From Terriglobales bacterium (lineage in GTDB: Bacteria; Acidobacteriota; Terriglobia; Terriglobales; Acidobacteriaceae), in contig JAOAPE010000003.1 in the NCBI GenBank assembly GCA_025462725.1, positions 310,001 to 374,000 of the forward strand: DNA of 64,000 bases, given 5' to 3'. Of this stretch, positions 44,441 to 46,536 are shown in pieces (within the stretch, counting starts at the first letter, position 1; each line of letters starts with the position of its first letter). The notes under the pieces are model-generated. The model had not been told where the DNA came from. It was given only the letters and a program-made list of their open reading frames with translations, and made no database searches. A program made the translations under genes and the position numbers.

Positions 44441-44584
44441 AGCATGTTCTCCTTTGCGTGGACGATACTCGGGAAACATCTCTGGTTCAACTTGAACACC
44501 CGCGTTGATTACGCGGGTGTTCGGCCAGTCGTTATACGGGCCTTGAAAGGGGACACTCGAACTTTGAAATCGACGCCTCAGATC

Positions 44585-44622
44585 TTAGTTCTGATTTGTG
44601 TCTTTAGTTCTGATTTTTGTCT
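44585..44622. repeat. 19-bp tandem repeat
   Basis: Two tandem copies of a 19-bp unit (TTAGTTCTGATTTGTGTCT, then the same with one change) lie in the gap 44480-44642, which holds no gene. They immediately precede the first copy of the long repeat and match in style the tandem units before the second copy. Confidence 0.75.
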
Positions 44623-44642
44623 TTTGTCTTTCAACATCTTGC

Positions 44643-44969
44643 CTTTGGTTTTCGGCGATTTTGAGCTCGAAGCTTGAACTACTGATTGGAACCTGAGATT
44701 TGTCCACTGGCGGAAACCGCAATTTGTCGCTGAAACGGCAACAGACACGCCACCAAGATGGAGCGCCATAGGCGCGGCGACGCGAAGCGCTTAGCCCAGC
44801 CCGTAAGGGCTGGGTAGGAACGTAAAACGATACGAGCGCCGGAGGCGCGGCAGCCTTGCCGCATGCCACGACAACATGGCAGGGCACGGCTTCAGCCGTG
44901 CTGGTCACACATCCATGGATGCGGCTTTGGTCCAGGGATTTTGAAACTTGAAACTCGAAACTGCTTTCC
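44643..44969. repeat. Long intergenic repeat, copy 1
   Basis: This block shares its whole modular order with 45612-45900: TTCGGCGA, GCTCGAA/CTTGAAC, TTTGTCC plus GGCGGAAAC-GCAATTTGT, AACGGCAACAG, GGAGCGCC-GAGGCGCGGC, AGCCCAGCCCGTAAGGGCTG, AACGTAAAACGAT, GAGCGCC-GAGGCGCGGCAGC, and finally TGAAACTTGAAACTCGAAAC. It also holds a GCACGGCTTCAGCCGTGC hairpin (44884-44901), absent from copy 2. No open reading frame with family character. Confidence 0.85.
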
Positions 44970-45010
44970 CGTAAGGTAAGATTTCAACCAGAATCGAGGA
45001 AACCTGCCTT

Positions 45011-45505
45011 ATGTTCTGTGACAAGTGCGGCAAAGAGATCCAAGCAGGACAACAATTCTGCAGCGCCTGCGGCAAGCCCGCACTCGCCACCACTGGCAAT
45101 TTCCAATACAAGAGCAAGGTCGCGCGACACGTCCACATCCTCGGCATCCTTTGGCTTGTCTATTCGGCGTTCACTTTCATCGGGTCCTGCATTCTCTTCA
45201 TTCTCGCCATGACCCTCTTCGGACCATACGGACATCTCAATGATCCCGATGTGCCCGTTCCCTTTCTCCACGTTCTCTTTGTTTTCCTGGGCACGTTCAT
45301 CCTGATCAAAGCCTTTGCTTCGCTGGCGATCGGTACTGGGCTACTCCAGAAGCAACCCTGGGCCCGGACACTGGCGCTCATCGTCGCCTTCCTCGCACTA
45401 TTGAATATTCCGGTCGGCATGGCTCTTGGCATCTACACGCTCTGGGTATTAATGTCCCCTTCGGCCGCCGAAGAATACCGCCGCCTATCAGAAACAACAC
45501 CCTAA
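45011..45505 (+). CDS. Zinc-ribbon membrane protein
   Basis: The 164-residue protein starts with a zinc ribbon (CDKCGKEIQAGQQFCSACGK; CxxC pairs at C3/C6 and C17/C20) followed by four hydrophobic segments (about residues 40-65, 85-105, 117-135, 140-160). Such zinc-ribbon plus membrane proteins are common in bacteria and of unknown role. It lies alone between two copies of a long repeat, so its promoter is probably within copy 1. Confidence 0.85.
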   Translation: MFCDKCGKEIQAGQQFCSACGKPALATTGNFQYKSKVARHVHILGILWLVYSAFTFIGSCILFILAMTLFGPYGHLNDPDVPVPFLHVLFVFLGTFILIKAFASLAIGTGLLQKQPWARTLALIVAFLALLNIPVGMALGIYTLWVLMSPSAAEEYRRLSETTP

Positions 45506-45567
45506 AAGCTGCTGAATGTTTAATCCTTTTCTGCGTTGCTTGCTGATCCTTTTGCTCTTTGTGTTTT

Positions 45568-45619
45568 AAGGTTTTGACTTTTTTCAAGATTTTGACTTTT
45601 TTCAAGGTTTTGACTTTGG
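45568..45619. repeat. 18-bp tandem repeat
   Basis: Three 18-bp units AAGGTTTTGACTTTTTTC (45568-45585, 45586-45603 with one change, 45604-45619 partial) form a direct tandem array. It lies immediately left of long repeat copy 2. No gene in 45506-45957. Confidence 0.85.
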
Positions 45620-45900
45620 TCGGCGACTTAAAAGCTCGAACTTGAACCTCGAAACAGCTTGGAGCATGAGCTTTGTTCACGGGCGGAAACTGCAATTTGT
45701 TCGACAAAACGGCAACAGGTATGCCAGCACAATGGAGCGCCAGAGGCGCGGCAACGCGAAGCGCATAGCCCAGCCCGTAAGGGCTGGTAGAAACGTAAAA
45801 CGATTCGAGCGCCAGAGGCGCGGCAGCCTTGCCGCACATGCCGAAACAATACCGGCGGCATGCCTAGCGATTTTGAAACTTGAAACTCGAAACTCTTTCC
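45612..45900. repeat. Long intergenic repeat, copy 2
   Basis: Second copy of the block at 44643-44969, in the same orientation, about 950 bp downstream. The palindromic core AGCCCAGCCCGTAAGGGCTG is at about 45767-45786 and the heptad tail TGAAACTTGAAACTCGAAAC at about 45873-45892. The two copies differ by scattered substitutions and one 44880-44930 insert. Confidence 0.85.
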
Positions 45901-45957
45901 CCTGTGCTCCTCTGTGTTCTCTGTGGTTCAATGTCTTAATTCGGACTGGTAACCGCT

Positions 45958-46536
45958 CTGCAAGAAATCGAAGTCAAATTCCGCATCGATAACCTGCCCG
46001 CCCTCGCGCGCAAACTCCGCGCCGCCGGCTTTTGCATAAAGACGCGCCGCACCCACGAGCTCAACACGCTCTACGATTTCCCTGACTCCTCCCTCCGACA
46101 GCGCGGCGAGGTCCTCCGCATCCGCAAGTACGGAGACGCATGGACGGTCACGCACAAGTCCAAAGGCACCACCGGACGCCACAAGACCCGCACCGAAACC
46201 GACACTCAAATCTCCGACGGCCAACAACTCGATTCCATCTTCAACACCCTCGGCCTCGCCCCTGCTTTCCGATACGAGAAATTCCGCACCGAATGGACCG
46301 ACGGCGAAGGTGACGTAGTCCTCGACGAAACTCCCATCGGCAACATCGCTGAGATCGAAGGCCCTCCCCGCTGGATCGATTCCACCGCCAAGAAACTCTC
46401 CATCACTCCCGACGCGTACAGCACCAAGTCCTACGTGCAACTCTTCCTTGAATGGAAACTCGCCAACGGAAGCCCCGCCCAAGACATGACCTGGAAGGCC
46501 CTAAACAAGCGAGTTCCAAGCAAACGACAGCCTTAG
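45958..46536 (+). CDS. CYTH-domain protein (class IV adenylate cyclase-like), apparent CTG start
   Basis: An intact 192-codon frame encodes a CYTH domain that begins QEIEVKFRIDN, with the ExExK metal/triphosphate motif at residues 3-7. The body has ELNTLYDFPDSSLRQRGEVLRIR, TVTHKSK, RYEKFRTEW and VLDETPIGNIAEIEGP, which closely match CyaB/ThTPase-like proteins. Upstream a stop (45937) closes the frame and no ATG, GTG or TTG lies between, so the likely start is CTG 45958, directly before the motif. An ATG two codons before the stop (45931) may be coincidental. Binds triphosphate substrates; exact activity unknown. Confidence 0.8.
   Translation: MQEIEVKFRIDNLPALARKLRAAGFCIKTRRTHELNTLYDFPDSSLRQRGEVLRIRKYGDAWTVTHKSKGTTGRHKTRTETDTQISDGQQLDSIFNTLGLAPAFRYEKFRTEWTDGEGDVVLDETPIGNIAEIEGPPRWIDSTAKKLSITPDAYSTKSYVQLFLEWKLANGSPAQDMTWKALNKRVPSKRQP

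Follow-up and report, generated by a model that had tools for sequence, protein, structure and literature searches.

Several described systems pair hairpin-forming or repeated DNA with a transposase of the tyrosine type. REP sequences and the REPtrons combine short, many-copy palindromic units with a Y1 gene (TnpA_REP, or RAYT), around which two units stand inverted. The IS200/IS605 elements (TnpA subclass 1.1) have an HUH/Y1 transposase with hairpins beside the gene, and their orientation follows replication, according to the sections of a review drawn on here (PMC5371812). TIRYTs, in TIRtrons, are tyrosine transposases with flanking inverted repeats, some of them double-palindromic, and the portion of the original description used here includes four acidobacterial species (De Nocera et al. 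2013, PMC3733652). For TnpA-Y1 subclass 1.2, the published row gives a length of 148 aa, a WQ motif, and the sequence YIKNQKEHH, with "no" under REP and "Cyanobacteria Bacteroidetes" as the distribution; the passage on this subclass states that IS properties are not shared by it (PMC6006769; Quentin et al. 2018, table and passage on the subclass).

The Rfam family RF01687 (Acido-Lenti-1) appears in the parts of the literature consulted as a noncoding RNA of little-known function. A 2026 paper proposes that it may regulate proteases in Tannerella (PMC13298647), and it otherwise figures in published lists (further literature drawn on: PMC10059132 and PMC7682815). Within the open-access literature (supplements and most subscription journals lay outside this scope), we found no paper joining RF01687 to a transposase. 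The transposase systems named above are already known; what is new here is the identification of one orphan, RF01687, with another, subclass 1.2, together with the strand evidence.

Here, we analyzed two repeats around one gene in a 64,000-nucleotide stretch of a Terriglobales genome (the window). Each copy contains one non-autonomous, REP-like three-hairpin DNA unit, which probably provides an IS200-like transposase (HUH/Y1, bearing the subclass 1.2 signature) with its recognition or terminal sequence.

RESULTS

Anatomy of the two repeat copies

The original prediction described two direct copies of 290 to 330 bp around one zinc-ribbon gene, each with internal palindromes and a tandem array on its left. 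Ungapped blocks and gapped local alignment both confirm the copies (Table 1). The ungapped blocks keep their order and are 83 to 94% identical, the main pairs being 44733-44813/45707-45787 (89%), 44813-44863/45786-45836 (94%), 44681-44727/45654-45700 (83%), and 44934-44970/45866-45902 (89%). The predicted size was somewhat too small, as the gapped alignment takes in the T-rich arrays, which do lie to the left of each copy. Copy 1 is the longer by ~40 bp, which lie inside ~44878-44925 and contain another palindrome, one that belongs to a different family.

Table 1. Features of the repeat-bracketed locus (window positions) and comparable brackets on other contigs of the same genome
Feature	Position	Strand	Basis or remark
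Copy 1, duplicated intergenic segment	44581..44970		Local alignment to 45545-45901
T-rich tandem array, left of copy 1	44585..44631		Repeat families D2, D8
Three-hairpin unit, copy 1	44758..44852	-	H1 44761-44775, H2 ~44793-44815, H3 44834-44848
RF01687 match, copy 1	44762-44814	-	29.8 bits
Second palindrome, different family, copy 1 only	44883..44901		Similar palindrome GCACGGCTNNAGCCGTGC flanks REP_Tyr gene of L034
GAAACTY heptamer array, right end of copy 1	44940..44962		Repeat search and shuffle test
Zinc-ribbon gene, 164 aa, between copies	45011..45505	+	Zinc-ribbon domain; resident, not cargo
Copy 2, duplicated intergenic segment	45545..45901		Local alignment to 44581-44970
T-rich tandem array, left of copy 2, period 18 bp	45564..45617		Repeat family D2
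Three-hairpin unit, copy 2	45732..45826	-	RF01687 match 45736-45788, minus strand, 25.0 bits
GAAACTY heptamer array, right end of copy 2	45872..45894		Repeat search and shuffle test
CYTH gene frame, directly right of copy 2	45937..46536	+	ORF inspection
Other same-strand unit pairs around one ORF	C70 267007/268259; C75 249470/250330; C75 81660/82728		

The internal palindromes are more frequent than in shuffled sequence. With up to 3 mismatches, CAGCCCGTAAGGGCTG has 4 matches (2 places, both strands) against a shuffle mean of 0.34; the GAAACT array has 2 matches against 0.00, and the second palindrome is likewise above shuffled expectation. The family of this second palindrome, also found at ~1357-1374 and 1881-1899 around the REP_Tyr gene of locus L034, recurs in relatives and is probably a classical REP family of these bacteria. 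Copies of the GAAACTY heptamer array are scattered through this genome and through those of several relatives, some of them apart from the hairpin unit (L009, L015, and L016). A radC RNA match at 44789-44898 was ignored (18.5 bits against a gathering score of 40).

A count of genome copies, run with a 16-base core in place of a 20-mer, gave only 2 exact matches in the 4.33-Mb genome and, at up to 2 mismatches, 10 matches, compared with 4 when the core was reversed as a control. The other occurrences of the module have diverged. A blastn search hit 16 places in the genome: 3 are pieces of the two copies, 9 contain the hairpin unit, 3 contain only the GAAACT array, and 1 contains only the second palindrome. 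The left part of the copies had no other blastn match in this genome. At three further places, same-strand unit pairs flank an apparent single-gene ORF (Table 1), so the bracket in the window is not unique.

The bracketed gene in congeners

A relative of the zinc-ribbon protein was found in 42 of the 61 genomes searched (this genome counted). Four congeners share, as far as the loci extend, the order polyprenyl synthase (named by Pfam in one of them, L038), zinc-ribbon gene, CYTH gene, small gene, and secA, and in all four congeners examined, no repeat accompanies the zinc-ribbon gene, which has polyprenyl synthase on one side and CYTH on the other. The repeats thus joined a gene that was already in place and did not bring it along; the zinc-ribbon gene is a resident rather than cargo.

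The congeners have 36 to 70 bp before the zinc-ribbon gene, and its stop codon lies ~40 bp ahead of the first conserved CYTH residues. The window counterparts of these stretches measure ~530 and ~450 bp, and the 64-kb window has no polyprenyl synthase; the repeats are thus additions in this lineage, and there is a rearrangement on the left as well. The addition also seems to touch the gene to the right. In the congeners, the CYTH gene has an ATG close after the zinc-ribbon gene. The CYTH frame of the window has no ATG, GTG, or TTG from the upstream in-frame stop (45937) to 46435; therefore, copy 2 appears to have displaced or removed the normal start, and judging from the frame, its addition seems to have removed it. 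A CTG remains at 45946 or 45958.

A three-hairpin unit related to RF01687

Each copy holds one unit of ~95 bp (~95 to 100 bp) with three hairpins, H1-H2-H3. The RF01687 model covers H2 and H1, and H3 lies outside the model. Both window units score under the RF01687 gathering score (29.8 and 25.0 against 37 bits), which counts against our reading; they are relatives of RF01687 and not members by the curated threshold. Other units of this genome score up to 62.8 bits and form a single three-hairpin alignment together with those of the window. Among the 30 units aligned as three hairpins (28 other RF01687 matches of this genome plus the 2 window units), two-sided changes occur at 11 of 17 predicted pairs. 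On the strand opposite the Rfam strand, TAG is invariant before H2 in 30/30 units (TTAG in 20, ATAG in 9, and GTAG in 1). A longer GCGCTTCGC-type linker is found in 10 of the 30, namely, the 2 window units and 8 others, which include both flanks of the transposase gene at C56:79916-80239. There is, in addition, a subfamily of units with H3 replaced by another shared module (C75 247895-250377 and C70 267007-268305 of this genome).

Association with Y1 transposase genes

This genome has 6 Y1_Tnp genes (PF01797), and the core flanks one of them on both sides in inverted orientation (L032). Altogether, 5 of its 29 RF01687 matches flank 3 of the 6 Y1 genes, where 0.04 would be expected. We extended the comparison to 35 Y1 loci, which comprise every PF01797 place of this genome (6) and the top-scoring place in 29 others (of 51 other matching genomes), a sample that favors IS200-like genes since the best-scoring place per genome was chosen. 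At an RF01687 cutoff of E ≤ 1, an inverted pair (minus on the left, plus on the right, within 250 bp) was present at 17 loci, a match on one side at 4, and neither at 14. The signature Y-x3-Q-x2-HH separates these loci: with it, 21/24 are flanked on one or both sides; without it, 0/11 are.

A larger set consists of the best 80 of 580 relatives, chosen by protein with a query (A1) built from 16 flanked loci (15 both-sided and 1 one-sided; L033 was omitted because its frame is seemingly shifted near the start), and is thus enriched by design. In these 80 loci, RF01687 (E ≤ 0.1) stands on both sides at 29, on one side at 13, and on neither at 38, and the orientation of matches near the gene is as predicted in 81/99. 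The 29 both-sided loci among these best 80 come from Acidobacteria, Planctomycetes, Verrucomicrobia, Calditrichaceae, Nitrospirae, Deltaproteobacteria, Lentisphaerae, Ignavibacteria, and Bacteroidetes; at the Lentisphaerae locus L240, the arrangement H1-H2-H3-gene-H3-H2-H1 is visible in the sequence. As controls, 20 zinc-ribbon loci (67.7 kb; drawn nonrandomly from the 30 fetched) had 0 RF01687 matches at E ≤ 1.

Parts of this evidence count against our reading. Many of the matches counted are below 37 bits, and if only matches of at least 37 bits are taken, 9/35 loci and 13/80 of the best 80 of 580 are both-sided. The 38 of those 80 loci without a correctly placed RF01687 match also weigh against it; at 13 of the 38, inverted repeats of another kind exceed the 99% control (a comparison without 1 of the 80 loci, whose flank was too short). 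Among 61 genomes, 25 have a gene over the NF033573 cutoff, and 24 of these contain RF01687, in favor of our reading; so, against it, do 12 of the 36 others, with G008 (46 matches) and G035 (11 matches) among them. In these two genomes, the transposase gene may have been lost, may have diverged, or may be unneeded for persistence. Some flanked genes are themselves below the NF033573 cutoff of 55 bits (G000:C33, 45.1; G004:C112, 50.0).

Two loci stand beside these sets as observations of their own. L131 (1405-1941) encodes a transposase of the same type with Phe in place of the catalytic Tyr and has no RF01687 match. The Flavobacterium Y1 gene of L236 is flanked by inverted ATCCC..GGGAT hairpins at 880-1000 and 1465-1536, which are not matched by RF01687 and may represent a variant of the RF01687-transposase system. 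Flavo-1 RNA (L236 and L258) was considered as a second case and dropped, as it lies outside the flanking inverted repeat and differs in sequence.

The transposase and its place among known systems

The four RF01687-flanked proteins scanned all exceed the cutoff of NF033573 (transpos_IS200) and fall under that of NF047646 (REP_Tyr; three weak matches and one none). The three nonflanked Y1 proteins of this genome show the reverse. A classical RAYT was rejected as the partner because the three REP_Tyr genes of this genome (L034 to L036) have no RF01687 match. In the aligned proteins, HxH, Tyr, Gln, and HH are invariant (16/16), as is the WQ motif (16/16), and the median length is 147 aa; DH[IV]H as printed occurs in only 7/16, and [DN]HxH occurs in 16/16. 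The Y-x3-Q-x2-HH signature is present at 24/35 loci and at 78/80 of the best 80 of 580. The transposase profile matches IS608 and other solved transposases.

These features resemble those published for subclass 1.2, namely, Y---Q--HH, WQ, a length of ~148 aa, proximity to IS200 transposases, and few gene copies, a likeness of motif and length (PMC6006769, table and passage on the subclass). Our loci differ from the published subclass in two respects: its row has "no" under REP, whereas 21/24 signature loci are flanked here, as are 42/80 on one or both sides (best 80 of 580), and the relatives here belong to many other phyla than those in the published distribution.

As in REPtrons, short palindromic units in many copies stand as an inverted pair around a Y1 gene, there are gene-less copies, some of them paired or clustered, and TAG is invariant at the foot of H2 on one strand. 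Unlike in REPtrons, there are three hairpins, the four flanked transposases scanned are of the IS200 type and not REP_Tyr, and most units are single; the foot of H2 is TTAG or ATAG (GTAG in 1/30), compared with the GT[AG]G published for REP sequences (PMC6006769, in the portion used). With IS200/IS605 elements, the units share the HUH/Y1 transposase, hairpins beside the gene, and an orientation tied to GC skew in two genomes. They differ in that a single three-hairpin unit stands, in inverted copies, on both flanks, the signature is Y-x3-Q-x2-HH rather than Y-x3-Q, and few genes accompany many gene-less units per genome. The likeness to TIRYTs and TIRtrons, a tyrosine transposase flanked by inverted repeats, is one of description. 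The elements of De Nocera et al. are, by this comparison, probably in part the same as the present acidobacterial ones under another name; the word Rfam is absent from the text of that paper as available to us (PMC3733652). The units match Acido-Lenti-1 RNA in sequence and in stems H2 and H1 (PMC2864571, in its section on this family) and differ from the published version, a probable RNA, in that we read them as transposase-recognized DNA with a third hairpin.

Dispersal and variation between sister species

At E ≤ 0.001, RF01687 has 29 matches in this genome (copy 1 included, copy 2 not), 50 in G001, and 35 in G003. As with REP-type sequences, a palindromic repeat is thus present in many dispersed copies (intergenic position was looked at for a minority). 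In this genome, 24/29 matches lie away from any Y1 gene. Most units are single (25/29 in this genome and 15/20 in G034), and the units of the window are direct, ~974 bp apart, rather than an inverted pair of the REPIN/BIME kind. Inverted neighboring units do occur elsewhere, e.g., among 14/51 matches in G030.

G001 and G003 are sister species with ~90% nucleotide identity. At 9 comparable sites, which cover 39/50 G001 and 24/35 G003 matches (the noncolinear G001:C53:3439 was dropped), 2 sites have units in G001 only, 3 have unequal numbers, and 4 have equal numbers. One insert limited to G001 corresponds to roughly a single three-hairpin unit. Comparison of the filled and empty G001/G003 sites revealed no clean target site duplication, and exact ends could not be fixed, which counts against our reading.

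Unit strand and replication

We compared the strand of the units with 20-kb GC skew, excluding inverted neighbors (4, 5, 14, and 0 in G000 [this genome], G034, G030, and G035, respectively) and two matches for which no skew window was available. Strand and skew agree for 22/24 units in this genome (one of those counted, C51:372176, is itself a transposase flank) and for 15/15 in G034. The relation is weak in G030 (23/37) and absent in G035 (6/10), which counts against our reading. Neighboring units are on the same strand in 10/12 cases in this genome, 6/6 in G034, 15/17 in G030, and 7/7 in G001, compared with 0/3 in G035. Flanking genes are codirectional with the units in 67/169 cases (genes being the longest ORFs, a crude call in GC-rich DNA), so gene direction does not explain the strand bias. 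In the window, where the skew around the units is negative, both occupy the minus strand. Under the usual skew convention, which we take to apply here, the Rfam strand would be the lagging-strand template in this genome and G034. The NTAG that precedes H2 as a REP-like foot, however, occurs on the strand opposite the Rfam strand, so either strand may be the active one.

DISCUSSION

From these sequence patterns, we read RF01687 as the DNA target of a clade of Y1 transposases and not primarily as an RNA. Weinberg et al. (2010) considered the family probably an RNA and probably not cis-regulatory (PMC2864571, in its account of the family), and a genuine small RNA, either carried by the transposase gene or regulating it, would account for the covariation of its stems. 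DNA hairpins, however, are expected to covary equally, and a small RNA sits poorly with a unit that stands on both sides of the gene in inverted orientation, that in this genome mostly lies away from Y1 genes, that is codirectional with a minority of neighboring genes (on the crude gene calls used), and whose strand tracks GC skew in two genomes. We consider this explanation unlikely.

The bracket itself admits two other accounts. The original prediction took it as a composite unit without a transposase, with the zinc-ribbon gene as a cargo that recombination between the copies could amplify or delete, and one gene bracketed by two direct repeats does have that appearance. The congeners speak against it: all four have the gene in place without the repeats, so we rejected a composite transposon whose flanking elements mobilize the gene, and no loss or amplification of the gene between copies was seen at the loci examined (4 congeners, all of other species). 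We therefore regard the cargo reading as highly improbable; what survives of the prediction is a dispersed, transposase-less class of repeat that varies among relatives, and the part in which it forms a composite around the gene does not. More weight attaches to the possibility that the bracket is a mere segmental duplication or gene conversion, with the hairpin unit as an inert passenger and no present mobility driven by a transposase. The duplication reaches past the unit, local same-strand and tandem repeats exist elsewhere in this genome, and genomes such as G008 have many units without an IS200 transposase over the cutoff. As an account of the unit, it is doubtful, since it leaves the dispersal of the units, the differences between sister species, and the association with transposase flanks unexplained. 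Segmental duplication may nevertheless be right for the bracket, where it forms part of our main explanation: a transfer confined to the unit does not account for the bracket, because the duplicated segment is longer than that and the left part of the segment is matched nowhere else in this genome.

On the transposase reading, the unit would fold into its hairpins while it is single-stranded at the replication fork. The subclass 1.2 transposase, whose gene, where present, typically lies in the layout H1-H2-H3-gene-H3-H2-H1, would cut and join the folded hairpins, and intergenic DNA would receive copied or moved units, most of them pointing the same way with respect to the fork. In the window, a resident gene ended up between two copies of one unit and its neighboring intergenic DNA, for which the simplest course would be insertion followed by local duplication. 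We think it likely that RF01687 is the single-stranded DNA substrate of a transposase subclass published in 2018 without a REP-like partner and that the two constitute a separate REPtron-like system, present in about nine phyla, in which the fork sets the orientation of the inserted three-hairpin units.

Two orphans, RF01687 and TnpA subclass 1.2, would then explain each other, and the bracketing repeats of the window are explained without a cargo role for the zinc-ribbon gene. If the link is true, RF01687 annotations should be taken primarily as mobile DNA, and binding and cleavage by the transposase can be studied on a defined substrate. The strand of the unit might mark the direction of replication in genomes like this one and G034, and other orphan Rfam hairpin families could hide transposase DNA of the same kind.
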